Below are positions 1 through 53,631 of a stretch of 64,000 nucleotides of DNA, piece by piece. Source of the DNA: Syntrophobotulus glycolicus DSM 8271. Its GTDB lineage: Bacteria > Bacillota > Desulfitobacteriia > Desulfitobacteriales > Syntrophobotulaceae. The stretch spans positions 1-64,000 of the forward strand of contig NC_015172.1 of the NCBI RefSeq assembly GCF_000190635.1. The letters run 5' to 3'. How positions within the stretch are numbered: the stretch's first letter is position 1; each line of letters starts with the position of its first letter. The position numbers were made by a program, and so were the translations under genes. The notes below the pieces were generated by a model, which saw only the letters and a list, made by a program, of their open reading frames with translations, had not been told where the DNA came from and ran no database searches.

Positions 1-4
1 AGAT

Positions 5-13
5 TGTGTATAA
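5..13 (-). promoter_or_regulatory. DnaA box upstream of dnaA
   Basis: Read on the minus strand these nine bases are TTATACACA, a match to the DnaA-box consensus TTATNCACA. The site lies 43 bases before the dnaA start, where the upstream part of a bipartite Firmicutes oriC and the dnaA autoregulatory region normally sit. Most of that region is outside the window. Confidence 0.6.
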
Positions 14-55
14 CTTTTTTCGACTCTACGTTATTTTTATTATTTGGAGGTGCAA

Positions 56-1396
56 ATGAGCCCCAATTCCACATATTTAAACGCATTCTGGGAAAATATT
101 TTGGATAAGCTCAGAAATGAACTTTCCAAGGCAAGCTTTGATACATGGCTTTCCTCAACAAAATTAGTCAGCTTTGTCAACAACCGCCTGACCATCAGTG
201 TTTCTAACGAATTCGCCAAAGACTGGTTGGAAAGCAGGTATTCCGCTTTAATTAAATCCACGGTTCAAAATTATCTGAATCGACCAGTTGCTCTAACCTT
301 TGTTGTCGAACAGGAACAAAATTATCAGCCCGAAATCATTGAAAGCAATGACCAGAAATTCGGTATTTTGTCACACCCTCTCAACAGAAAATATACTTTT
401 GATACCTTCGTTATCGGAAACGGAAACCGCTTCGCCCATGCCGCAGCTTTGGCCGTTGCCGAATCCCCGGCTAAATCATATAATCCTTTATTTTTATATG
501 GAGGAAGCGGCTTGGGAAAAACACATCTCATGCATGCCATCGGCCATATCATTAACAGAAATTTTCCGGAAATGAAAATCGTTTATGTTACAGGAGAACA
601 ATTTACCAACGAAATGATCGATTCTATTCGTTATGAACGTCAGGTTGAATTCAGAAATACATATCGTAAGGTAGACTTGCTTCTTATTGACGATATTCAG
701 TTTCTAGCAGGTAAAGAAGGTACCCAGGAAGAATTCTTTCATACCTTCAATACTTTATATGAAGCGAATAAACAAATTATTATCTCTTCAGACCGTCCTC
801 CCCGGGAGATCCCTACATTGGAAGAAAGGCTCCGGTCCCGCTTTGAATGGGGATTGACCACAGATATTAATCCGCCGGACTATGAAACAAGAATAGCCAT
901 TTTGAGAAAAAAAGCCCAACTGGAAAATTATATTGTTCCTGATGAAATCATCACATTTATCGCATCTTCGATCCAATCCAATATTCGAGAGCTCGAAGGA
1001 GCTTTAAGCAAAATCACAGCATTTTGCATGCTGACAAATCAATCTATTACGGTGGAATTGGCCGAAGAAATCCTGAAAGATATGATACCAAACAGAAATC
1101 AAAAGATTATCTCTATAGAATTAATTCAAAAAACCGTTGCTGAACATTATAAAATGTCTGTAAATGAATTAAAACAAAAAAAGAGAACCAGAACCATTGC
1201 TTTTCCCAGACAAGTAGCCATGTATATTTCCAGACAGCTTACAGATTGTTCACTTCCTCAAATAGGAGAAAAATTTGGCGGCCGTGATCATACGACGGTT
1301 ATTCACGCCTTTGACAAAATTTCTGAGATGAAAGAACACGATCCATTTGTAGAAAAAAGCATTAATGAAATTATTAATAAGATTAAATCAACCTGA
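56..1396 (+). CDS. dnaA: chromosomal replication initiator DnaA
   Basis: DnaA is the AAA+ ATPase that binds DnaA boxes and opens oriC. The 446-residue protein has the usual length. It shows an N-terminal domain I, a Walker A motif GGSGLGKTH near residue 148, Walker [11 protein letters not shown] near 208, and the domain IV DNA-binding signature [12 protein letters not shown] near 407. An in-frame TTG lies at 44, but the ribosome site GGAGG (46-50) fits the ATG at 56. It is the first gene of the standard origin cluster dnaA-dnaN-recF-gyrBA, and the following 157-base gap carries origin sites. Identification is secure from motifs and context. Confidence 0.99.
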
Positions 1397-1503
1397 TATC
1401 CACAAGATTCTCATGCTGTTAATCTACCGCTCAACCCCCCATTATTTAAGGCAAATTGCGGATATCCACAAAAAAACGACTTATACTACTACTACTGCTA
1501 ATC
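1396..1503 (+). other. oriC unwinding region: DnaA boxes and DnaA-trio
   Basis: Two near-consensus DnaA boxes (ATATCCACA, one mismatch to TTATCCACA) lie at 1396-1404 and 1462-1470. Fourteen bases after the second box comes TACTACTACTACTGCTAATC (1484-1503), a run of CTA/CTG triplets of the DnaA-trio type. In Bacillus the DnaA-trio next to a DnaA box is the basal unwinding system onto which DnaA loads as a filament on single-stranded DNA. Position between dnaA and dnaN matches the unwinding half of a bipartite origin. The role is inferred from pattern and position. Confidence 0.8.
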
Positions 1504-1553
1504 TATTAATCATATTACTGATGCGAAAAAAATATTCCTGAGGAGTCTTTTTG

Positions 1554-2651
1554 ATGAAAATAAAAGTTACAAAAACTGATCTCTTGACTGGAGTAAATAC
1601 TGTTCAAAGAGCCGTTTCAGCCAAAAATACACTTCCGATTTTGCAAGGAATCAAACTCCGGGCTGAAAACAATACGCTCTGTTTTGAGGCGACGGATTTA
1701 GAATTAGGCATTCGCAGCAGTTTTGATGCAGAAATTATTGAAGAAGGGACAATCGTTTTACCTTCCAGATTGTTTTCTGAAATCGTTCGAAAGTTGCCGG
1801 ATAGTGATGTGGTTTTAGAATCGACTGATCATATTACAAATATTAATTATTCAGGATCCAGCTTTACCATTAATGGTTATGATCCGGAAGAATTTCCTGA
1901 AATAGGCGATGTTCCTGTTGAGGATGAAATAAAGCTGCCTGCCGACCTGTTTAAAAATATGATCAGGCAAACAGTGTTTGCTTGTGCTGCTGAAGAGACA
2001 AGGCCTGTTTTTACAGGGCTCCTTCTCCATCTGGAAGAAGATAATCTGGCCTTGGTTGGTACAGATACTCATCGTTTAGCTTATCGTACAGCCAAGATAC
2101 CCGGCAATAAGCAAAAATTTAAAGGTATAGTTCCGGCGAAATCCATGCAGGAAATCTATAGATTATTACAGGATGATCATGACTTAACGATATATTGTTC
2201 CAAGTCGCGAGTATTTTTTAATTTCGGATCAATTCAGCTTCAAGCTCGATTAATTGATGGGCAGTTTCCCAATTATAAACAAGTCATTCCTCAAAAATGC
2301 AATACGAAGTTATTGATCAATACCAAGAATTTCACAGACATGGTTGAAAGAGCTTCCCTGTTATCAAAGGATAATTTAATTAAAACAGGTTCAGTAAGGA
2401 TAAATGTGGAAAACTCTGTCTTGAAAATCAATCAGTTTTCAGAAGCGGGTAAAATCAATGAAGAAATGAAGATCAATCAGGATGGAGAAGATGTTTCGAT
2501 TTCATTTAATTCAAAATATGTTCTGGATCTTTTAAAAATCATTGATAGCGAAAATATTTTGATGGAAACTTCAGGTGCGGTTAATCCGTGTATTTTTAGA
2601 CCGGAAAATGATCAGGATTATTTATGCCTGGTTTTACCATTAAGAAATTAG
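1554..2651 (+). CDS. dnaN: DNA polymerase III beta sliding clamp
   Basis: The 365-residue product is the ring-shaped processivity clamp of the replicative polymerase. It opens with the typical MKIKVTKTDLL, has the conserved segment LPILQGIKL near residue 27, and ends in the usual pattern of hydrophobic residues followed by LPLRN. The start is the ATG at 1554, eight bases after the GAGGAG ribosome site at 1540; a TTG three bases earlier is less well placed. It follows oriC and precedes recF by four bases, as in other Firmicutes. Confidence 0.98.
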   Translation: MKIKVTKTDLLTGVNTVQRAVSAKNTLPILQGIKLRAENNTLCFEATDLELGIRSSFDAEIIEEGTIVLPSRLFSEIVRKLPDSDVVLESTDHITNINYSGSSFTINGYDPEEFPEIGDVPVEDEIKLPADLFKNMIRQTVFACAAEETRPVFTGLLLHLEEDNLALVGTDTHRLAYRTAKIPGNKQKFKGIVPAKSMQEIYRLLQDDHDLTIYCSKSRVFFNFGSIQLQARLIDGQFPNYKQVIPQKCNTKLLINTKNFTDMVERASLLSKDNLIKTGSVRINVENSVLKINQFSEAGKINEEMKINQDGEDVSISFNSKYVLDLLKIIDSENILMETSGAVNPCIFRPENDQDYLCLVLPLRN

Positions 2652-2655
2652 GAAT

Positions 2656-3755
2656 ATGCTAATCCATAATCTTTACTTCAAAAATTTCAGAAATTACAGT
2701 GAACAGGAAATAACATTTACAAATGGGATTAACATTTTAGTAGGTTCCAATGGACAGGGAAAAACCAATGTCCTTGAAGGAATCTATTATCTTTTAATGG
2801 GAAAATCTTACCGGGTAAATCAAGAAAGTGAGCTTATTTATTGGGGACAGAAAAATTTTTACCTGAGAGCGAACTTTGAAGCCTATGAGCGTAAATATTG
2901 TTTAGAAAGCTATTACGAAAAAGGAAAAAAGGCCATAAAAATTAATCAGCTGGCTTGTCAAAAATTATCGGAATACGTAGGAATGATCAATGTGGTTTTT
3001 TTTACGCCTGATGATTTGAACATCATTAAAAGCGGTCCTTTGGAAAGGCGTAGATTTATTGATCTTCTGCTTATTCAGGTCAAACCGGCACATATTTCAT
3101 TGTTAAATACCTATATCAGGATTCTTAAACAAAAAAGTATTCTTTTGAAAAGAAGTCTGAATAAAGCTGCGGCGAATGACCAGCTTCTGGTCTGGAATGA
3201 ACAGCTCTTAGAGACTGGGAGCCGGGTGATCAGAAATAGATATGAAATGACAGAAAAACTTCAGAACCAATGTGGTAAAATGTTCAGTAAGGTCTTCGGC
3301 TGCCATGAAAATATGGATTTACAGTATGTTTCTCTTGGTAGAAAGAGCCTTGATGAAGCTTTGGCCTATTTCCCCGAGGCTTTAGAGAAACAAAGGGATG
3401 CTGAGATAGAACGGCGGGCAGTGCTTGTTGGACCACACAGAGATGATATAATAGTAAATATAAACGGGCGCTCAGCAAGGTATTATGCATCACAGGGGCA
3501 GCAAAGATCACTGGTTCTTTGTTTGAAATTAGCAGAAATGGAAATAATAAATAAAGAGAAAGAAGAATATCCCATTTTGCTGCTGGACGATGTTTTGTCT
3601 GAACTGGATGAAGGACGCAGGGAGTATCTGATGGAATACATCAGTAATTCAAATAAACAAACCATGATCACGACAACCGACCTTGGTCAAATTGAAAAAC
3701 AAAAAGACCCAGCTGTGTACATCGTCAAACAGGGGACAATAAGGAGGGAATCCTG

Positions 3756-11536: not shown

Positions 11537-11610
11537 TTTGCTTTAACCAGATCAGCTGGTTTTTTTACTAAGTAATCCTATACTTTTGGGTAGAAGTGTG
11601 CTGAAATCAT

Positions 11611-11689
11611 GGCCTCGTAGCTCAGGCGGATAGAGCGGGGGTTTCCTAAACCCTGTCTTGCGGAGGTTCGAGTCCTCCCGAGGTCACCA
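11611..11689 (+). tRNA. tRNA-Arg(CCU)
   Basis: GGCCTCG pairs with CGAGGTC before the encoded ACCA. The anticodon loop TTCCTAA gives anticodon CCT (codon AGG). The D-arm GCTCAGGCGGATAGAGC and T-loop GGTTCGAGTCC are standard. Confidence 0.94.
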
Positions 11690-11753
11690 TTGAAATTAGA
11701 CAGTGAACAGACAAGGCAATCATAAGAAATAAAGAAGGAGCAGACGCAAAAGG

Positions 11754-12200
11754 ATGAAGCATGAAGACTGGATGCGTCTAGCCTTAAAACAAGCAGAGAC
11801 AGCTTTGGAGAAGGACGAAGTCCCAATCGGAGCTGTAATTGTCAAAAATGGGGAAATATTGGCCTTGGCCCATAATGAAAAGGAAACGAACCAGGATCCA
11901 ACTGCGCATGCCGAAATGCTGGCAATAAAAAGAGCGGCTCAAAAGCTGGGAGCCTGGCGCCTATCCGGCGCCACTCTGTATGTAACGCTGGAACCCTGCC
12001 CGATGTGTGCGGGAGCAATCATTCAGTCCAGAATAGAAACGCTGGTTTATGGAGCGGATGATTCTAAAGGAGGGGCTGTGGGGTCCGTCCTAAATGTTCT
12101 CCAGCATCAGCTGTGGAATCATAAAGTGGAAATCATAACGGGTATCCTGGAAGAAGAAAGCGCCCGCCTGTTAAAAGGTTTTTTTCGAAGCAAGAGATAG
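11754..12200 (+). CDS. tadA: tRNA-specific adenosine deaminase TadA
   Basis: TadA deaminates adenosine 34 of tRNA-Arg(ACG) to inosine. The 148-residue protein has the zinc deaminase motifs HAEM near residue 52 (His ligand and catalytic Glu) and PCPMC near 82 (two Cys ligands). The ATG at 11754 follows AGAAGGAGCAG. It stands among tRNA genes. The small SRP RNA that follows tadA in some Firmicutes is not recognised here. Confidence 0.94.
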   Translation: MKHEDWMRLALKQAETALEKDEVPIGAVIVKNGEILALAHNEKETNQDPTAHAEMLAIKRAAQKLGAWRLSGATLYVTLEPCPMCAGAIIQSRIETLVYGADDSKGGAVGSVLNVLQHQLWNHKVEIITGILEEESARLLKGFFRSKR

Positions 12201-12328
12201 AGAAGGATAGACGGAACCAGCAAACCTTATAAAACGGGAATTTCTGGGGAACAGGAATAACTGAATACTTGCGAGGAAGATCATTTTTCTTAAAAGCGTT
12301 TTTCCGCTTCGGCGGTTAAACTATATAC

Positions 12329-12420
12329 GGAGCGGTATCGAAGTGGTCATAACGAGGTGCACTCGAAATGCATTTGCCGGGTTTACTGGCACGTGGGTTC
12401 GAATCCCACTCGCTCCGCCA
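12329..12420 (+). tRNA. tRNA-Ser(CGA), first copy
   Basis: GGAGCGG pairs with TCGCTCC (one G-T pair) before GCCA. The anticodon loop CTCGAAA gives CGA (codon UCG), with a long variable arm and T-loop GGTTCGAATCC. It shares GTATCGAAGTGGTCATAACG with the second tRNA-Ser(CGA) at 16,704, so the two are related copies. The decayed island starts right after it, which suggests an old integration point. Confidence 0.93.
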
Positions 12421-12423
12421 CAT

Positions 12424-12462
12424 GGAAGCCTGCAATCTCAAGGGATTGCAGGCTTTCGCCAT
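12424..12462 (+). terminator. rho-independent terminator after tRNA-Ser
   Basis: A stem AGCCTGCAATC/GATTGCAGGCT with a short loop, followed by TTTCGCC and a T run, lies four bases after the tRNA. It should end transcription of the tRNA. Confidence 0.6.
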
Positions 12463-12597
12463 TTTTGAACGGTGCTGTTTTTTCGCTTGTTCCGTTCATG
12501 GTTCTATCCACTCCTTTCTAAAAACCGCCTATTTACAGGCTTTTTGGGCTATTCGTTTGGACGCACACATAGCCAAGCCATTCCCTACTGTATTCTT

Positions 12598-43115: not shown

Positions 43116-44945
43116 TTATCTGCCACCCGCCTTTCCGAACAGCTTTTCCTTGTAGGCAGGGGCATGGACCGCAAGGTTATACCGCTCTATGCCGCATTTG
43201 TAGAGGCACACACCACGCTGGGGGAAGCGGATTAGGTTGTATTCGGATTCCTCTAACTGGAGGCTGTCGATATAAAACTGTTTGTCAATGTTCCCTGCAT
43301 TAAAGAGGAAAGCGTGAGTAGGAATGGAGAACAGCGGTTTTGTCAGCTCCCTGATGCCCTCTATATTGAAGTCCTCCAAATTCTGAGAAGCCAGAATTAT
43401 CGCCGACTCCTTTTTTCTGACACGCTTCATGAAATTTCGGATATACTCAATCGCAGTCAGATTGGTCAGGAACAGATACAGCTCATCAATTGATGCGGCG
43501 GTATTTCCCCCGGTCAAGAGCTTGTCGCTCATAAAGGAAAGCACATTGAACAGCAGGGCGTTTTTCACATTCCGGCTGGCTTGCAGCAATCCTTTTACTC
43601 CGAACACAATAAAGCGGTGGTCGGTCACGTTGGTGTGGCCGTTGAAGAATTTACTTTCGGCTCCCATACACATGGAGTGGAGCCCCAGCAGGATTTCCTG
43701 CAGCAATTCCTGCGGGTAGAGCTGATAGTTACTTTTGTCATATCCCCTAAACTCATCGTCAATGAGAGCATAAAGGTCAGATAAGACAGGATAGTCTGTG
43801 GTGGCAAGGCTTCTGAAATCAGTGCGGTCGCTGATGCCAAATTTTTCGTACAGCTTGCCCAGCATGATTTCTATGGCGTCGATGTGGCGGTCGGAAAAAT
43901 CTTTATAACAGCGGAAAAAATCCTTAAGAAAGGAAATGTGTTGACTGAGCTTGGTGGACTGGCGGAATGCCTGGGGTGCGTCGGTGTCCTCCGGGCTGCC
44001 TCCTTCATCCCATGTTTTAGGCTCCAGAGGATTGATACGGTATTGCCCGCTCATCAAGTCGATGAAACAGCCGAGGTTCTCTGCGAGGTCAACATATTCA
44101 TGTTCAGGATCAAGGCACAGGACGGACTTACCCGATTCGAGGATGTTACAGAGGATGAGCTTGAGGAGATAGCTCTTGCCCTGACCGGAGTTACCGAGGA
44201 TTAAAATGTTCGCATTCGTCTTGTCATCGTCACGCTTATCGAAGTCCACAATGATATTTGAACCAAATTTATCACGGCCAAGATAGAAGCCGTGGGGATC
44301 GGTCTTGCCACTGTAATTGAACGGATAGAGGTTTGCCACCGAGCTGGCGGGTAAAACCCGTTCAAATTGGCTGCCGAACACATTCCGTCCCGCAGGGCCG
44401 ACCGACAGAAAGCCCTCCCGCTGGCGCAGTATCAGCCGGTCTACATTGAGTTTTGAGCGGACCAGCTCAGTCAAGACGTCGGTCTGGAGGAGCTTTAAAT
44501 CGTCCAAATTGTTCGCTGTCAGCTCAATAAAAACAGCGCAGTGGAGGAGCGGCTCACGGTTTCGGTGCATGGAGGACACCAGTGTGACCACATCCTGCAA
44601 ATTGCTTTCGGCGGTGACTGTCTGCTGGAGATCGTTGGTGCTGCTCTTATCCATGCGGTTTTTATTGGCTGCGTTATGGATGATTCTCTTTTCCTCTGCC
44701 GCCGTTACCTGTCTGGTGTAGATACGCAGGGTCACACCGTCCTTTTCCCCAAGATGACGCAGGATGGCCTGCTCATCGGTTGCGGTAGGGTACTCACGGA
44801 GAGCCCAGACACACCGATAGGTGTTGCCGCATATAAAATGGTCCGTATTGAACTTGATGATGCCCGGTGCGATCATGTCAAGAAAATCCTTGATTTTCGA
44901 CTCTGCCGCCCCAGCATCAGCCTTTGTTTTTTTGATTTTAGGCAT
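43116..44945 (-). CDS. virB4: VirB4/TraE-family conjugation ATPase
   Basis: VirB4 powers assembly of the type IV secretion channel. The 609-residue protein has Walker A ILGNSGQGKSYLLKLI near residue 250 and a Walker B/DE region IDELYLFLTN near 480, then ILASQNLEDFNIEGIREL near 540. The usual N-terminal VirB4 domain is shortened; the following gene upstream (45,028-45,615) looks like the missing part. A ribosome site AGGAGG lies before the ATG, inside a short inverted repeat (GGGAGGT/ACCTCCC near 44970-45010). Confidence 0.94.
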   Translation of the reverse strand: MPKIKKTKADAGAAESKIKDFLDMIAPGIIKFNTDHFICGNTYRCVWALREYPTATDEQAILRHLGEKDGVTLRIYTRQVTAAEEKRIIHNAANKNRMDKSSTNDLQQTVTAESNLQDVVTLVSSMHRNREPLLHCAVFIELTANNLDDLKLLQTDVLTELVRSKLNVDRLILRQREGFLSVGPAGRNVFGSQFERVLPASSVANLYPFNYSGKTDPHGFYLGRDKFGSNIIVDFDKRDDDKTNANILILGNSGQGKSYLLKLILCNILESGKSVLCLDPEHEYVDLAENLGCFIDLMSGQYRINPLEPKTWDEGGSPEDTDAPQAFRQSTKLSQHISFLKDFFRCYKDFSDRHIDAIEIMLGKLYEKFGISDRTDFRSLATTDYPVLSDLYALIDDEFRGYDKSNYQLYPQELLQEILLGLHSMCMGAESKFFNGHTNVTDHRFIVFGVKGLLQASRNVKNALLFNVLSFMSDKLLTGGNTAASIDELYLFLTNLTAIEYIRNFMKRVRKKESAIILASQNLEDFNIEGIRELTKPLFSIPTHAFLFNAGNIDKQFYIDSLQLEESEYNLIRFPQRGVCLYKCGIERYNLAVHAPAYKEKLFGKAGGR

Positions 44946-45617: not shown

Positions 45618-45875
45618 TCATGCCCTCCATTCATAGGATTGTTGCTTGCCGAAGAAGAAAGCGGCGGCATAGCGGATAAAATCGAGGATACTCACGTCCT
45701 CAAAACGTATGGATAAAAAGGCATAGAGCGCCGTCAGGACGATGGGCGGCAGCCAGCCGAGCTGGGAAAGGGCAAAGACAGAAATCAGACATCCGACGCC
45801 GATGATTCCAATATCCCGTAGCTCCCATAGCCACAGGGTAGCCTTTGACTTTAAGTTGTCGGGGTAGATATACAT
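45618..45875 (-). CDS. prgI: PrgI/VirB3-like membrane protein
   Basis: The 85-residue protein has the PrgI family start MYIYPDNLKSKATLWLWELR and two adjacent hydrophobic segments (DIGIIGVGCLISVFALSQLG and PPIVLTALYAFLSI), with a C-terminal DFIRYAAAFFFGKQQSYEW. PrgI takes the VirB3 position and recruits VirB4 to the membrane. It overlaps the end of the methyltransferase gene by 25 bases and the VirB4-like gene follows after two bases. Confidence 0.9.
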   Translation of the reverse strand: MYIYPDNLKSKATLWLWELRDIGIIGVGCLISVFALSQLGWLPPIVLTALYAFLSIRFEDVSILDFIRYAAAFFFGKQQSYEWRA

Positions 45876-48017
45876 GGGGGTGATTCCTCCTGTTCCTCAT
45901 GGATTATTCGCAAAAAATAAGCGATGCCACGGAGGACAAAGTCCACGCACGGTATCGCCACGCTGTTTCCAAGTGCCTTGTATCTGGCACTGTCCGATGC
46001 TCCCGGTATCAACGTCCAGCCATCAGGAAAGCCCTGGAGCCGCTCACATTCCAGAGGAGTAAGTCTGCGGATGAGGTTGCGTCCATTCTCTTTTACAAGA
46101 TTTTCGCTTCCGCCTCCGTTGTCGCCACCCTGGGCACGCAGAGTGGTACAGCCCTCCGCATAGTTGCCATATTGTGATTGGCCGAATACTTCAGGCTGAC
46201 AAATGAGATCGGTGGCATCCTTATGCTGCCTTGCACTTTGTGTGGCAACCACATCATTTTCGGAAAATTCATCGCTCCGCTGTCGGCTGAATACCGCATG
46301 GCGGTCGCTGGTGGTAATGGTATAGCTGATGTCCGGCTGACAGCCCAATCCGTTGCCGCCGTTCTCCGGCTCCCGGTCAATGGTGTTGCCAGCAATGCAG
46401 ATGGTTTCCTGCAAAATAGCACTTCCCACGAGCGGTACATTATTGCCGCCGGTACCATAGGTCGAGGTGACGGTAGGGGCTACCTCCAACGGTCCGTTAT
46501 ATCTGCAATCCTTGGCATGGTTATCAAACAGCACCGGCTGGTTGTTTCCGCTCATGCCTGCGCTGGCAGTGATGGTTGGGCAGATGCCGACGCCGATTTC
46601 TGCGCCTCCCTGCTGGGTCGCCATGACCAGCGGCTGGTGACCATGCTCCTGGGCGCGGAGCGTACCTGTGATGTCCTCCGTGCAGTGCATCTGGCTGCCG
46701 CCTTGATCGTTTAAGCAAAGCACGGATGGAGCAGTACCGGTTTTAATAGTGGGCGAACACTCTGACTGATAACCGATTCCTCTGGCCTCTGCGCTGGCAT
46801 TGCCGCAGAATCCTGCGGTAAGCACACAGGGATAGCCCTGTCCGGCCTGACCGCCGCCGCTGGTGATGGAGGTATGAACCTCCGGCGTGAGAAAACAATC
46901 GCCGTCACCTTTGCTGATAACTCCTGCCGCAAATAGAAGTCCTGCCGGGTTTCTTCCGCCGCCCCCGTCCGCTCCGGCAAGAGTGGGCGCCACACCCTCC
47001 GGCGTGAACACACGGCTTTGCTGGGTATCCCATCCGTTTAGACAGTTCGGCTGGGATATAAGGGGAGGATGACCTCCCATGTCTGCACGGAGCGTAGGGG
47101 TTACTTCCTCGGTGATATCCATTCGTTCTCCGCCATGGTCGTTTAAGCAGACCAATGGCTGCTGGGTGACAAAGGTCTGCATCTGCATATTGCGGGTTGC
47201 CAGCAGAGCGCCTGATATGCCGTCAAGATCAATCACCTCGTCCCGTTGGTTGACATGAAAAGCGCTGATTTTTTCAGCATCCGCCACAAAAGTCTGCTGT
47301 TTCATGCCGGGGCTGGCACCCAAGGCTCCGGCTACATCCTGGAGGTTCCGCACTTCATCACGCTGGTTGGCGGCAAAGGCTATCGCTGTTTTTTCCTCTG
47401 TCTGGATATACCCATGCCCGCCGCCTTCGCCGCCATAAAGAGAGGGCCATGTTCCAGTTTCCTCAAAGATGCGGCGGCTCTGCACATCCCATGGGGTCAG
47501 GCAAGCTCCGCCTGTATCGTCAGTGCCTCCTTGAGCTGGGGCGGCAGCTCCTTGCCCCTGGCTTCCGCTCTCCGCAATATCCCCAAACAGGCCGTCTTGC
47601 TTAAATAGTATTTCGGGTGCGGTTGTGCCTCCAAAATCTGCGACAAGGAAGATGCGACGGCGACGCTGGGCGACTCCCCAGAATTGAGCGTCCATGACAC
47701 GCCAAGCCAAGCTGAATTCAGTTCCCAATATGACAGCCCCAGCAGATTCCCAGCGCCCGGACTCAGGTCGAGGCACATCACAGGCACTGTACTTAATGCG
47801 GACGATCTCCTCGATGACCGCCCTGAAATCCTCGCCGTCTGCGGAGCTAAAGGCTCCGGGGACATTCTCCCAAACGAGGTATCGAGGTCGAATAAAGTGA
47901 GCTGGTACGTTTCGCTGCTCATCGGCTTTTCTCATCTCCTTTGCAATCCGTGTCTGCTCCATAAATAGACCAGAGCGTTCTCCGGCAAGTCCGGCACGCT
48001 GCCCAGCCACACTCAGG
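45851..48017 (-). pseudogene. cytosine-5 DNA methyltransferase, C-terminal part (split by RIT element)
   Basis: This frame continues the methyltransferase after its catalytic motif. It begins DLSVAGQRAGLAGERSGLF (motif IV end), then motif VI region VWENVPGAFSS, then motif VIII with QRRRRIFLVADF. After that comes a long insert of repeated degenerate units (such as LNDHGGERMDITEEVTPTLRA and LNDQGGSQMHCTEDITGTLRA), and at the end motifs IX-X with RRLTPLECERLQGFPDGW and YKALGNSVAIPC. The protein joined to its N-terminal part would have about 795 residues. The separated part cannot work alone because motif I and the nucleophile lie beyond the insertion. Confidence 0.85.
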
Positions 48018-48049
48018 TCCTGGTTATTCCGAATTCGGGATAACCAGGA
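48018..48049. repeat. 32-base near-perfect palindrome at the left RIT junction
   Basis: TCCTGG is followed by TTATTCCGAATTCGGGATAA and CCAGGA, so the two halves pair with one mismatch. The centre GAATTC and arm TTATCCCGAA recur in the terminal repeats. Only the left junction has it; the right end goes directly from the terminal repeat to the methyltransferase. It may be a recombinase site or a scar of integration. Confidence 0.8.
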
Positions 48050-48131
48050 TTATGCCGAGAAAATAGTTATCCCGAAGTTTAAGCCGTTGCCCTTGTAAAT
48101 AAAGGGGTTGTGGTCAAAAACTTCGGGATAA
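48044..48131 (+). repeat. RIT left terminal inverted repeat, 88 bases
   Basis: It starts CCAGGATTATGCCGAG and ends AAACTTCGGGATAA. It is the reverse complement of 51825-51911 apart from one substitution and one extra base near position 43-49. Inside it TTATCCCGAAGTTT and AAACTTCGGGATAA form an inverted pair, probably the recombinase binding sites. Confidence 0.9.
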
Positions 48132-48210
48132 TAGAATTGTGTTCATCGTTTAATTGCATAATAGAAAAGGCAGGTTTCATCTGACTATCTGAAAATGCGA
48201 GGTAAAACAA

Positions 48211-49824
48211 ATGGACACATTTAATTTGAAAGTGGCCGCCGAGCAGTCTCTAAGGCTACTGGAGAGGAGCGGCGCAAGCGCGAAAACAGTTAAAGGGTAT
48301 CGAGTTACAGGTTTTGGTGCAATTATTCGCCATTTCACCCGACAGGGTGTTATGGATGTGAACGCCGAAATGCTTGACGCTTTTGTGCTGGAACAGCGCG
48401 AACATTTTGAACAGGGTGAGTTTTCCGAATGGAAATGGCGGCTGGTCCGGCGTGGGAGTGAATTACTCAAACACTTTGCACAGACCGGTACAGCGGAGTT
48501 GACCGGACTCCGCCCTTGGAATCCTATTTTGAGAAAACCGCGCCAAAGTGTTGAACTGGACATGCCAACACCTGAACAACTGACCGACCCCGACGATCTT
48601 TTCGCACTGATTTGGCGAGTGAAGCAAGAGCTTCTCAAAGCGGGGCTGACGAAACGGACAGTGCGGCATTATACGGTCGAAGGAATGACAATCATCTTGC
48701 GCAGGCATACAGAGCAAGGACTGGCACACTATTCTGAATCACTGTCATCCGACATAGTGGCGGAAATACGAAGCAAATATGAGCAAGGTCTTACCTCACG
48801 GGTTTCATACCAGAACCTGCGCAAAGCGAGTTACCTTCTGGCTGAAATGTACCGAACCGGGGGCATTACTTTCTGCAAGATTCCAGATTGGGGGCAGCGC
48901 GAACCGGCTCCCGAATTTTCAGCCTTGCTTCTCCATTTCTGTGACAATGCTAACCGTACCGGCATACTTGCGGGCAGCACGGTCAAGACGGCTCGAAGCG
49001 CCATACGCACCTTTTTCTTTGAACTGGAAGCGCGTGGCAGGATATCCTTTGACGGCATCACTTTGGCAGAGGTCAGCGACACCATAACCCATATGGCAAC
49101 CCGATATACCAGCGGTCTGCACTCGGCCATCTTTTCCGTGCGGATATTTCTCCTGCATTTGTATGAAAACAATTTCACACCGGAGAACCTCAGCCTTGCG
49201 GTTCCTGAGATGGTCGCACGCAGAACTGTATTCCGAGAGGGTTTTACCGGCGACGAAACAGCGTGCCTGCTGGATGAACCAGATTTAGCAACGGCTGTCG
49301 GTAAGCGTGATTACGCCATGATGCTTTTGTCCGCCCAAACCGGCCTGCGCGCCTGTGATGTTGTAAATCTCAAACGGGAGGACATTGACTGGCGGGCCCG
49401 GGAGATTCGCATTGTTCAGCAGAAAACGAGAAAGCCGCTGAGTCTTCCTCTTGAACCTGAAAGCGGCAACGCAATTGCAGACTATCTGCTCCATGCCCGC
49501 CCAGAAAGTGATTTGCCGTATATTTTCCTGTGTCACACCGGCGCTCTGCGCCCCATTAACAACCGCAGCGCCAGCGCCCTTGTGACAAAGTACCTGCACC
49601 GCGCAAAAATTGCTTCAGATATTCCCCACCGGGGGTTCCATAGTTTCCGACGGGCGTTTGGAACCCGGTTGCTGCAAAACGAGATACCGCTTGAATTGCT
49701 TCGACAACTTTTGGGGCATTCAAAGATTGATTCGGCGAAACCGTATCTCTCCGTAGATGAGCAAGGCCTGAAAACCTGCGCTCTGGGGCTTGTGCCTTGC
49801 GAGAAGGTTGGTGATTTGGCATGA
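48211..49824 (+). CDS. ritA: RIT tyrosine recombinase A
   Basis: The 537-residue protein is the first and longest of the three recombinases. An extended N-terminal part holds two core-binding-like repeats (similar segments around residues 10-95 and 120-205, each with a KTVKGYRVT/KRTVRHYTVE start). The catalytic domain has Arg in AQTGLRACDVVNL near 374, HSFRRAFGTRLL near 475, LLGHSKID near 497 and tyrosine in KPYLSVDE near 508. ATGA overlap couples it to the second gene. Confidence 0.9.
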   Translation: MDTFNLKVAAEQSLRLLERSGASAKTVKGYRVTGFGAIIRHFTRQGVMDVNAEMLDAFVLEQREHFEQGEFSEWKWRLVRRGSELLKHFAQTGTAELTGLRPWNPILRKPRQSVELDMPTPEQLTDPDDLFALIWRVKQELLKAGLTKRTVRHYTVEGMTIILRRHTEQGLAHYSESLSSDIVAEIRSKYEQGLTSRVSYQNLRKASYLLAEMYRTGGITFCKIPDWGQREPAPEFSALLLHFCDNANRTGILAGSTVKTARSAIRTFFFELEARGRISFDGITLAEVSDTITHMATRYTSGLHSAIFSVRIFLLHLYENNFTPENLSLAVPEMVARRTVFREGFTGDETACLLDEPDLATAVGKRDYAMMLLSAQTGLRACDVVNLKREDIDWRAREIRIVQQKTRKPLSLPLEPESGNAIADYLLHARPESDLPYIFLCHTGALRPINNRSASALVTKYLHRAKIASDIPHRGFHSFRRAFGTRLLQNEIPLELLRQLLGHSKIDSAKPYLSVDEQGLKTCALGLVPCEKVGDLA

Positions 49825-50789
49825 CATACACGTTTGAAAGCCTTTTTGACAAGCGTCTGTGCGGGTTTGTACAGCAAAAGAATGCCGTCGGATTTCCGTA
49901 TAACGAATCGTTACGACTGCTGCGCGATTTCGACCGGTTCTGCCTTGACAGGTTCCCCTCTGAAACCGCTTTGACTAAAGAGATATGCTTGGCTTGGGCT
50001 GTCCGAAAGAATACGGAGGGCAACAATACTTTTCGCAATCGCTTAATGCCGGTCAGGGAATTTGCTCGTTACCTAAACCGTTGCGGGGAACCGGCCTTTG
50101 TGCTCCATCCCAATTTCGCAAAGAAAGGTCAGCGGCACATCCCACACATTTACAGCGAGGAAGAAATCGCTGAACTATGGGATGTTTTAGACCATCTGCG
50201 GCCGCGCAAGGGCTATCCTATCCGCCATTTTGTTCTTCCAACGCTTGTCCGGCTATTGTATTGCTGTGGCCTGCGCCCCTGCGAGGCCCGAAAACTCCGG
50301 ACTGCCGATGTGGATTTGGAAAAGGGACGCTTGGAGATTATGGAAAGTAAGGGTCACAAAAGCCGCATTGTGATGATAGCGGATGATGTTGTTGAAATGT
50401 GCAGGCGATATGATGAAATTGTTTCACGGCTTATGCCGGGACGTGAGCTGTTCTTTCCCAATTCCGATGGAAATCTGTACACCAAAGAGTGGCTGGAAAA
50501 GACATTTCGCATTGCTAAAGCCAAAGCAGGAATCGGAGCATCCGGTGAGCATTCCCCCAGACTTTATGACTTCCGGCACACATTCGCGACGCACCGTCTG
50601 TACCAGTGGATGCGTGATGGCAAGGACGTAACCGCCATGCTGCCGTATCTAAGCGCGTATATGGGCCACACGCAGTTAAGCGACACATATTACTATATCC
50701 ACTTGGTTCCGGGCCTGTTTGAAAAAATGGCGGGGTTTGACTATTCAGCGTCAGAACATCTTTTGCCGGAGGTGGAGTGCGATGAATGA
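49821..50789 (+). CDS. ritB: RIT tyrosine recombinase B
   Basis: The 322-residue protein has the integrase catalytic set: CCGLRPCEARKLR near residue 150, KGHKSRIVMI (beta-hairpin lysine) near 182, LYDFRHTFATHRL near 253, MGHTQLSDTYYYIHL with the tyrosine near 295. Its ATG overlaps the ritA stop and its end overlaps ritC by eight bases, so the three are made from one message. Presumably it acts in a complex with the other two. Confidence 0.9.
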   Translation: MTYTFESLFDKRLCGFVQQKNAVGFPYNESLRLLRDFDRFCLDRFPSETALTKEICLAWAVRKNTEGNNTFRNRLMPVREFARYLNRCGEPAFVLHPNFAKKGQRHIPHIYSEEEIAELWDVLDHLRPRKGYPIRHFVLPTLVRLLYCCGLRPCEARKLRTADVDLEKGRLEIMESKGHKSRIVMIADDVVEMCRRYDEIVSRLMPGRELFFPNSDGNLYTKEWLEKTFRIAKAKAGIGASGEHSPRLYDFRHTFATHRLYQWMRDGKDVTAMLPYLSAYMGHTQLSDTYYYIHLVPGLFEKMAGFDYSASEHLLPEVECDE

Positions 50790-51807
50790 TTTTTTTAATA
50801 CCATCAGAAGTTTTCTGTTGGAGTATCTGCCCAACCAAAGATGCTTTAGCGAAAATACGGTTCGATCCTACCGCCAGGCGCTGAATCTATTCATTTTGTA
50901 TTTGCGGACGGAACAAAGGATGTCCGTTAAGCAAATACGATTTGATGCCATGAACAGAGAAATGATTTTGAATTTTCTTGATTGGCTGGAAAATGACCGG
51001 CACTGCGGCGTCAATACCCGAAACCAACGGCTTATGGTATTGCGCTCATTTTTTAATTACGCCGGGGAGCTCGACTGCACGCAGATTGCATTAAGCGTAA
51101 CCGTCCAGAATATTCCGATTAAAACTCCGCAAAGCAAGGTGGTAGAGTATCTGTCGGAAACAGCGTTGGAGGTTTTACTGAAACAGCCATATCCGACAAA
51201 ACGAACCGGGTTGCGCAACCTGTTTTTTATGGTGCTGATGTATGATACAGCCGCGCGTTGCGGTGAACTTTTGGACATGAAGGTTCGTGATCTGCGCGTT
51301 AAGGTTCAGCATCCCATTGCCTATTTGCACGGCAAAGGAAACAAGACCCGCACGGTACCTTTGCTTACCGGAACAGTTCAGCATTGTGAGCGATATTTGC
51401 GTACATTCCATACCAATGAACCGGCGGACAGTGAAAAACCTTTATTCTACACCGTTATTCATGGAATACAGCAGCCTATGTCCGCAGATACGGTGGCGCT
51501 GTTTCTGAAAAAATACGGAGATTTGGCTTGCCGTGCCTGCCCGGAGGTCCCGCCACATATCCATGCGCATATGCTCAGGCATACCAGAGCAATGCACCTG
51601 TACCACCAAGGAATGCCGATGATGTTGCTTTCTGAATATCTCGGTCATGCCAGTGAAGAAACAACCAAAGTATATGCTTACGCAGATACCGAAATGAAGC
51701 GCGCGGCGATTAACAAAGCTGAGATCGTTCGAGGTAACGCTCCGCCACCCGTGCCGGTTTGGGTTGACGATGAGGACATGATTCTCAAATTATCTGGCTT
51801 AATCTAA
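50782..51807 (+). CDS. ritC: RIT tyrosine recombinase C
   Basis: The 341-residue protein has an N-terminal SAM-like domain (CFSENTVRSYRQALNLF), then TAARCGELLDMKVRDL near residue 155 with the first Arg, KGNKTRTVPL near 187, HMLRHTRAMHLY near 262 and YLGHASEETTKVYAY with the tyrosine near 297. The ATG at 50782 has GGAGGTGG before it; longer frames back into ritB are unlikely. The gene ends 17 bases before the right terminal repeat. Confidence 0.9.
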   Translation: MNDFFNTIRSFLLEYLPNQRCFSENTVRSYRQALNLFILYLRTEQRMSVKQIRFDAMNREMILNFLDWLENDRHCGVNTRNQRLMVLRSFFNYAGELDCTQIALSVTVQNIPIKTPQSKVVEYLSETALEVLLKQPYPTKRTGLRNLFFMVLMYDTAARCGELLDMKVRDLRVKVQHPIAYLHGKGNKTRTVPLLTGTVQHCERYLRTFHTNEPADSEKPLFYTVIHGIQQPMSADTVALFLKKYGDLACRACPEVPPHIHAHMLRHTRAMHLYHQGMPMMLLSEYLGHASEETTKVYAYADTEMKRAAINKAEIVRGNAPPPVPVWVDDEDMILKLSGLI

Positions 51808-51824
51808 TGAAATACCCAATATTG

Positions 51825-51911
51825 TTATCCCGAAGTTTTTGACCACAACCCCTTTATTTACAAGGCAATGGCTTAAACTTCGGGATAACTATTTTCTCGG
51901 CATAATCCTGG
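51825..51911 (-). repeat. RIT right terminal inverted repeat, 87 bases
   Basis: Read on the minus strand it starts CCAGGATTATGCCGAG and ends AAACTTCGGGATAA, matching the left repeat except for one substitution and one missing base. The methyltransferase N-terminal part follows directly. Confidence 0.9.
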
Positions 51912-52126
51912 CATGGGCTGCCCCCGCAGATCACATCCACAAGAGGCAATGCCGCTCCGTCAAGTTTTGTGATATCTCCGACATGGAGCATTTCAGGAAA
52001 TCGGATTTTTGTCACTTCAATGGGAAAGGCTTCGATTTCACTTGCCCATAAGGGGGTGATTCCATTGTGGACAGCAACAAGCGGGAAGCCTCCGATCCCA
52101 TCGAAGAGGCTCCCCATCGTCATCAT
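51912..52126 (-). pseudogene. cytosine-5 DNA methyltransferase, N-terminal part (split by RIT element)
   Basis: The first 74 codons carry motif I GSLFDGIGGFPL (AdoMet binding), a motif II-III region PLWASEIEAFP and motif IV ICGGSPCQD with the catalytic Cys. From there the frame runs into the RIT end (AEKIVIPKFKPL) and stops. Removing the element between the CCAGGA copies would join PCQD to LSVAGQRAG and restore the gene. The start ATG overlaps the DUF4406 gene stop by one base, showing that the gene belongs to the transfer operon. Confidence 0.88.
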
Positions 52127-52528: not shown

Positions 52529-53434
52529 TTATTTCGGTGCAACCGCCTGCACCACAGTTCGGGTGGTGTTCACAGCGGCCTGCGCCGTGTACACGGCACT
52601 CATCACATTAGCCTTTGTGCTGGTGTCCAGCCCAAAAGCTCCAGCGATTCTTGGCACTTCCCCTGCGGAAAGCATCAGCCCAAGCCCCAGCAGGGCGTGG
52701 GTTCTCAGGACCATAAGCCCTGCGGCAAGGATGGTTGCCTGCAAAAATGTGGTGAGGCACAGACCGATGATCTGCTTGCACCACTGTGTAAATCCGTCAA
52801 TGTAACCGCGAGGAACGGAAAACATATACAGGCTGCCTACAGCAATCTGGATCAGCAAAATGCCCCCACGTTTTAAATTGGCAAAAAAAACTTTAATGAC
52901 CGAGTATCCCATCATGATAATCAGGAAAAGCATCATGATGGGGTTTGTGATGCCCGACAGCCCTCCAAAGATACCGGAGCCCATAGCACCGCCCAGGTCT
53001 GACGAGCTGCCAAGCTCTGCTATGATGTTCCCCGCAAGGTCACCGAAGCTGCTTCCGTAGCCGGTGATTCCTGCCGTGAGGCTGCTCTGGAGATTGACCG
53101 AGAGCTTGAACAGCTCCACCGGTAAGATGGTAAAAAGGGACACCGCCATAAAGCCTTTGATGGCGTTTAAGGCGGCGTCTTTTATGCTGCCCCGGCCGTG
53201 CTGGTACTCGATTCCGGTTTCAAACACCGACACCACAAGCCCGGTCCCGTACAGCGCCCAAGCCAGATAAGAGAAAAACAGGACGATGGACTGTACCCAT
53301 TCCATAGAGAACAGCTCCACGCCCATATTTCCCATTTGTGCAAAAAAGTCAGCAAGAAAGCCAACCACTTGTCCGTAGAGCCATTCGATGATCTGATCCA
53401 TCACGGTTCCGAGGACAAAATCCCATATAAACAT
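52529..53434 (-). CDS. VirB6/TrbL-like conjugation membrane protein
   Basis: The 301-residue protein has about six membrane segments (SIVLFFSYLAWALYGTGLVV near residue 50; FMAVSLFTILPVELFKL near 96; PIMMLFLIIMMGYSVIKVFF near 170; ILLIQIAVGSLYMFSVP near 198; FLQATILAAGLMVL near 238) and a polar C-terminus. This is the layout of the inner-membrane VirB6/TrbL pore component. GGAGGTGA lies eight bases before the ATG at 53434. It neighbours the pilin-like DUF3852 gene. Confidence 0.85.
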   Translation of the reverse strand: MFIWDFVLGTVMDQIIEWLYGQVVGFLADFFAQMGNMGVELFSMEWVQSIVLFFSYLAWALYGTGLVVSVFETGIEYQHGRGSIKDAALNAIKGFMAVSLFTILPVELFKLSVNLQSSLTAGITGYGSSFGDLAGNIIAELGSSSDLGGAMGSGIFGGLSGITNPIMMLFLIIMMGYSVIKVFFANLKRGGILLIQIAVGSLYMFSVPRGYIDGFTQWCKQIIGLCLTTFLQATILAAGLMVLRTHALLGLGLMLSAGEVPRIAGAFGLDTSTKANVMSAVYTAQAAVNTTRTVVQAVAPK

Positions 53435-53631
53435 TTGGAAGTTCACCTCCTTCGAGACATAAAAAATCACACCGTAGCAAGGCACACGGTGTGTTCATTC
53501 ATCTCGGTTAATAAATTTCGAGCAATGATTTTTATTTGAGTAAAGCTCAAAAACAACTTGACAATCAGCTCTTTCAGAGTTTCAATACCACACAACGGTG
53601 GCCGCCGAAATAATCTTAGGAGGTCAATTGC

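Follow-up and report, generated by a model that had tools for sequence, protein, structure and literature searches.

The first 64,000 nucleotides of contig NC_015172.1 of Syntrophobotulus glycolicus DSM 8271 (referred to below as the window) contain a gene for a C5 cytosine methyltransferase, encoded on the minus strand, that is divided into two pieces (52126–51906 and 48017–45851) by a RIT (Recombinase In Trio; Van Houdt et al. 2012, PMC3414803) element. The N-terminal part (51906–52126) extends from motif I to PCQD, ends with the N-side core of the element (see below) and was recognized by a Pfam DNA_methylase match (E = 9.7e-14) and by the joined frame; its open reading frame (ORF) continues into the RIT element (51854–52126). 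The C-terminal part (45851–48017) carries the ENV and QRRRR motifs, a repeat region and motifs IX–X (Pfam DNA_methylase, 1.8e-22; PADLOC orphan methyltransferase PDLC03715, 2e-88). The splitting of a DNA methyltransferase by a RIT element, proposed in a first-pass annotation made from the sequence alone, was borne out: the ritABC genes and their inverted repeats lie between the two DNA_methylase halves.

The first-pass annotation placed the split exactly at the catalytic motif. This holds for the PCQ motif, with one refinement: the break is located after the Gln codon of PCQ, within the next Asp codon, and the catalytic Cys is retained in the N-terminal fragment. The N-terminal part ends with GGSPCQ/D and the C-terminal part restarts with LSVAGQRAG. 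CCAGGA is present at both junctions, as had been noted (48018–48023 and 51906–51911; the plus strand reads TCCTGG at these positions), and joining of the flanks across one such core produced the anticipated open frame of 795 codons, with a single stop at its end. The joined frame contains the motifs FDGIGGF, PCQ, ENV, QRRRR, RRLTPLECERLQGFP and GNSV, and gave one Pfam DNA_methylase match (E = 3.9e-44, residues 2–200) spanning the junction, which lies at residue 72. Within the complete 3,406,739-bp genome of this type strain (PMC3156405), no PF00145 gene other than this split one is present. The RIT insertion breaks the methyltransferase and most likely inactivates it.

The inserted element is a RIT element with the gene order ritA-ritB-ritC. 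All three genes are on the plus strand (48211–51807) and encode tyrosine recombinases with Pfam Phage_integrase matches: ritA (48211–49824; 537 amino acids (aa); 4e-26), ritB (49821–50789; 322 aa; 2.1e-19) and ritC (50782–51807; 341 aa; 1.4e-28). Consecutive genes overlap by 4 bp (ritA/ritB, 49821–49824) and 8 bp (ritB/ritC, 50782–50789). The catalytic set R-K-HxxR-H-Y is complete in RitA (R380, K405, H477, R480, H503 and Y512) and RitC, while box II of RitB reads Y-D-F-R, with Tyr in place of His, likewise in related RitB frames; the earlier remark that the three recombinases look intact agrees with these results. No other genes are located between the terminal repeats.

RitA was characterized by alignment, repeat comparison and an AlphaFold model (mean pLDDT 80, pTM 0.40, at which the shapes of the domains are usable and their mutual arrangement is not). 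The model shows three tandem four-helix bundles followed by the catalytic domain. RitA proteins have been described with two sequential core-binding domains (PMC8138268); the model predicts three core-binding bundles here, the extra one being N-terminal (48211–48500). Bundles 1 and 2 are sequence repeats of each other (E = 3e-12), and alignment showed that the extra bundle is common to most of the window clade and missing from the Flavonifractor copy L019 (see below) and from other RIT clades. Foldseek groups RitA with Xer recombinases. Plasmid records matching RitC number 657, with Cupriavidus sp. P-10 as an example (32% across 90% of the length); this relates the element by sequence to proteobacterial RITs. 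The element is present once in the 3.4-Mb genome.

The ends of the element have features that were not part of the first-pass annotation: terminal inverted repeats of approximately 98 bp (94% identical to each other), a 20-bp palindromic spacer and a further core copy, the third, in inverted orientation. Read from the N-side of the methyltransferase, the order is as follows: the target-derived core CCAGGA (51906–51911, minus strand; TG|CCAGGA|), the right inverted repeat (51814–51905; read inward on the minus strand from 51905, its tip is TTATGCCGAG), the antiparallel rit genes, the left inverted repeat (48050–48142), the inner core CCAGGA (48044–48049, plus strand), the palindrome TTATTCCGAATTCGGGATAA (48024–48043), the outer C-side core CCAGGA (48018–48023, minus strand) and the rest of the methyltransferase. 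The cores and the spacer were delimited by comparison of junctions, and the repeats by repeat comparison and matching to a 29-bp end pattern, which has exactly two matches in the window and none in shuffled sequence. A palindrome overlapping RIT ends has been reported earlier (PMC3414803); the dual-core reading of these ends is new here.

To place this insertion among others, related copies were collected by a RitA scan of genomes and viral contigs and a search of phage records, and their junctions were extracted. Besides the window, junctions located directly after PCQ of C5 methyltransferases were identified in Lacrimispora amygdalina (L015), a Clostridia metagenome-assembled genome (MAG; L016), a Lachnospiraceae MAG (L017), Flavonifractor An10 (L019), Lacrimispora defluvii (L020), a prophage contig (L036), two human gut phage records (L048 and L050), G009, a member of the same family as the window host (L060), and three viral contigs (L061–L063). 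Among the relatives that were found via their recombinase genes and have a flank, eight out of nine are inserted at the PCQ codon; this ratio leaves aside L061–L063 (found with a core-favouring pattern), L060 (a methyltransferase search) and L050 (an end alone). The interrupted methyltransferases sit in integrative and conjugative elements (ICEs), in prophages and in unrelated subfamilies, and are 70% to 25% identical to that of the window; in L017, the methyltransferase is 25% identical and the elements are 77% identical in DNA. A chance knock-out, in which a RIT without target preference has entered a dispensable gene, would suit an accessory ICE gene (orphan methyltransferase) with intact relatives free of the element. 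This explanation is nevertheless barely credible, since the junction table contradicts it: at least 13 methyltransferases, including those of distant subfamilies, were struck at the same codon, with the spacer on a fixed side.

Several other searches gave negative results. Whole-element blastn found no plasmid match and three fragments in phages. The RIT was not detected in the other 24 members of the family and, besides the host, was detected in one of 398 genomes of the phylum, at 30% identity. No paper reporting RIT insertion in methyltransferase genes was found in the literature searched.

Comparison of the divergence of the elements with that of their host genes indicated how the copies were distributed. 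The elements of the window and L015 are 97% identical in DNA, compared with 85–89% for the methyltransferase halves, and synonymous divergence (dS) is 0.05–0.14 for the rit genes and 0.77–0.83 for the methyltransferase. For L036, DNA identity of the elements is 93%, although its host gene, a prophage methyltransferase, shows 52% aa identity over the best 169 residues. This mismatch means that the element moves between methyltransferases; the insertions at the PCQ codon are independent of each other. Another possibility is that the element inserted once, long ago, and has since been passed on with the ICE, the gene persisting as a split two-piece enzyme. In the window and L016, neither half has lost its motifs or its open frame, and the dS values for this pair are close (0.49–0.75 for the rit genes, 0.75–1.05 for the methyltransferase). 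However, the divergence of element and host gene disagrees for L015 and L036, orientation and cores vary, and the C-terminal part has no start apart from an internal GTG, making such inheritance very improbable. The rit genes are under purifying selection (ratio of nonsynonymous to synonymous divergence, dN/dS, 0.09–0.18), which fits active selfish genes. The value for the methyltransferase halves (dN/dS 0.07–0.13) cannot tell a switch apart from a recent insertion, given that each insertion arose independently.

The elements occur in both orientations. The rit genes are antiparallel to the methyltransferase in the window, L015, L016, L019, L048 and L060, and parallel to it in L017, L020 and L036. 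Regardless of orientation, the spacer is on the side of the methyltransferase C-terminal part in all 11 copies with that side visible, and the N-terminal side lacks a spacer in each of the eight copies in which it can be seen. On the N-side, the core is in every case a continuation of the target (TG|YCARNN), while on the C-side it may differ (CACTGA versus CCAAGA in L015 and L036; TCAGGA versus CCAGGA in L019). Every inner core reads YCARGA or CCAGGC, which would be expected if earlier insertions had also occurred at PCQ codons.

These observations are best explained by a site-specific RIT transposon that homes on catalytic-motif codons of C5 methyltransferases and is not a dedicated on/off switch, a reading that we consider highly probable. 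It is built on the sequences of the insertion sites, the structure of the ends and the independence of the insertions; the circle, the choice of strand and the loss of methylation are predictions from these. The proposed target is the short DNA sequence TG|YCARNN, encoding Cys-Gln of the catalytic PCQ motif (site form TGCCAGGAC). RitABC would form a circle with the joint inverted repeat'-core-spacer-core-inverted repeat, which for the window is predicted to read GGCATAATCCTGGTTATTCCGAATTCGGGATAACCAGGATTATGCC. Since this joint is palindromic and has two usable cores, either could recombine with the target, which would give both orientations and a fixed spacer side. As is the case for SE and Tn554 elements, the target would supply one 6-bp core and the donor the other. 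By inserting at a conserved codon in a gene that is common on ICEs and phages, the element may gain portable landing pads as well as a ride between hosts. Precise excision in the window would restore the gene, but is probably rare, or movement may be of a copy-out type.

Several points weigh against this homing transposon. Transposition is so far deduced from sequence comparison and none has been observed. L050 and L060–L063 show just one element end, and L060–L063 came from searches that favour the site. The C-side core CACTGA is shared by L015, L036 and L063, although their elements and targets differ, and it fits no simple footprint rule; a 6-bp footprint rule for this core, when tried, accounted for most loci and failed for these three. 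One copy, L049, is located outside a methyltransferase. Its left junction, CCGTGCCAGTG, still has TGCCAG, which indicates recognition of DNA rather than of the gene.

The first-pass annotation also suggested that clean excision could make the insertion a reversible switch, with RitABC excising and reinserting the element within one lineage, toggling cytosine methylation of the ICE or host, and reversibility being selected. The excision half of this proposal retains its basis: recombination of the identical CCAGGA cores would restore the 795-codon frame. Moreover, methylation would follow the state of the element in a genome with no other C5 methyltransferase, seven of the ten interrupted genes with a visible C-terminal part are otherwise open, and GInts, which are related, are able to regenerate an empty site in some strains (PMC5385486). 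The switch itself gained no support, and independent repeated insertions were found instead. Young insertions would equally show open frames; the L015 and L036 cores are unequal, so that excision there could leave PCT instead of PCQ; three of the ten interrupted methyltransferases with a visible C-terminal part (L015, L019 and L050) contain a second recombinase element; and SEs leave no empty site (PMC10214605). A dedicated switch is therefore regarded as unlikely.

The search for alternative states was of limited power. No empty or circular form was found with one assembly per species: the single S. glycolicus assembly has the interrupted state alone. A circle-junction pattern for RITs with TTATGC tips had no match in viral contigs or in 126 loci, again with low power. 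Two 4.3-kb phage records that had been considered as excised circles proved to be linear contigs, each with a RIT edge beside a methyltransferase and without a terminal repeat. The comparison of related methyltransferases with and without an element at this codon, which had been proposed earlier, was informative: both kinds exist, the insertions being recurrent and independent. The refuting outcome named with it, the same decayed gene in every related ICE, was not seen, as G003 has an intact relative; the closest intact gene is 78% identical to that of the window.

The element shares with known RIT elements three overlapping tyrosine recombinase genes arranged A-B-C, a palindrome that overlaps the terminal inverted repeats, and a size of approximately 3.5–4 kb. 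RITs inside genes of mobile elements have been reported in radC of a Tn4371-like ICE and of Bordetella petrii island GI3, in IS66 tnpA and in a Tn6049-type transposase gene (PMC3414803, PMC2864759). RITs have been known since 2009; as of 2023, a list of their untested properties included target specificity, excision and mode of movement (PMC10214605). The copies described here differ from those in a PCQ-codon target that recurs across unrelated genes, a third RitA bundle and a deduced dual-core palindromic joint.

Several tyrosine recombinases and site specificity are shared with SE, GInt and Tn554 elements, and so is the pairing of a 6-bp target core at one end with an unlike 6-bp footprint at the opposite end; asymmetric 6-bp cores and the fingerprint/footprint rule have been published for SE and Tn554 (PMC10214605). 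Unlike them, the window element contains no tfp, srap, ginD or tnpC gene. The intA-tfp-intB-srap set of SE elements is absent, and neither ORF inspection nor Pfam identified a tnpC-like ORF, all three genes being recombinases, in contrast to Tn554, where TnpC of the tnpA-tnpB-tnpC set is not a recombinase. As far as published descriptions show, SEs and GInts lack the palindromic spacer. GInts left a detectable empty site in some strains only (PMC5385486), and excision may therefore occur here too.

The streptococcal integrative and mobilizable elements, which integrate in the conserved ICE genes traG, maff2 and snf2 (PMC5357655, PMC5704250), are likewise small; they target and disrupt conserved genes of larger conjugative elements, with which they can hitch-hike. 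These streptococcal elements use serine integrases and carry mobilization genes, whereas the window element has tyrosine recombinases, no mobilization gene and an active-site target. Conjugation genes do surround the split methyltransferase gene: one for a VirB4/TraG-like ATPase (43116–44945, minus strand; Pfam AAA_10, DUF87, P-loop_TraG) and one for a TrbL-type conjugal transfer protein (52529–53485, minus strand; Pfam TrbL_5, 8.4e-151). This fits an ICE context.

Other RIT clades were examined by scanning viral contigs with a RitC profile combined with a methyltransferase profile. RITs of another clade were located exactly at ENV|P (motif VI), with the core YGTNCC, in L086 (4654–8099), L115 (392–3836), L080 (2764–8118) and as the second RIT of L019 (4216–7439). 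Both L019 and L086 have two RITs within one methyltransferase gene, the second RIT of L086 being at motif X. Further RITs were found at N(D)QGG segments of methyltransferases (L037 and L052), and in L103 a RIT is located between motifs VIII and IX. For genes other than methyltransferases, joined flanks placed RITs in reverse transcriptase genes at PQGG/S|xLSP (L025, 7631–11152; L090, 5196–8654). In L091 (4666–8105) a RIT lies precisely at the Walker A codons of a ParA-type ATPase gene (NLKG|GVGKTT), and in L021 in a DDE transposase gene (PADK|GKIE). Conserved motifs of an amidoligase (L104), DUF4314 (L095 and L098) and DUF932 (L027) are also occupied. Pfam analysis of joined flanks covered L021, L025, L027, L091, L095 and L104. 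In these other clades, too, two inverted 6-bp cores enclose a 20-bp palindrome of the same type (TTATN4ANNTN4ATAA). Insertion at motifs in the other clades is in line with the RITs described earlier from radC and transposase genes.

The odds slightly favour the view that RITs in general are motif-homing transposons, with the recombinases of each clade matched to codons of one conserved, often catalytic, motif in families common on mobile elements. Homing introns and inteins occupy active-site codons that are highly conserved, and so have targets available in many hosts. General motif homing by RITs would act on DNA in a similar way without splicing: there is no RNA or protein splicing here, and the host gene stays broken while the element is present. 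If RITs do home on catalytic codons, they would naturally supply recombinases with pre-set specificity for conserved protein motifs. The junction set supplies a specific target sequence, a prediction of the circular joint and an orientation rule, and it covers several independent clades. Any 5-methylcytosine in S. glycolicus DSM 8271 would report excision, because this genome has no other C5 methyltransferase.

Some additional structures were observed in the collected loci. A near-identical element with three recombinase-like genes (GInt/Tn554-like) occupies the ECER|LQGFP site (motif IX) in the same methyltransferase, both in Lacrimispora (L015, 853–5782, minus strand) and, twice, in G007 (L066, 4350–8867; L067, 741–5258). 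Its N-side 6-mers continue the target and its C-side 6-mers differ (TGGCGG, GCAAGG and GAACGG). The gut phage record L050 contains a pair of large recombinase genes (1–2920, minus strand) that splits the same methyltransferase further downstream. In L080 (2700–8180), a RIT with a radical-SAM cargo gene has the methyltransferase N-terminal part on both flanks, each with its own spacer, a structure that suggests recombination between two RIT copies. L036 carries a passenger gene (11606–12529) between ritC and the right end, encoding a repeated, GSGS-rich polypeptide of 307 aa.

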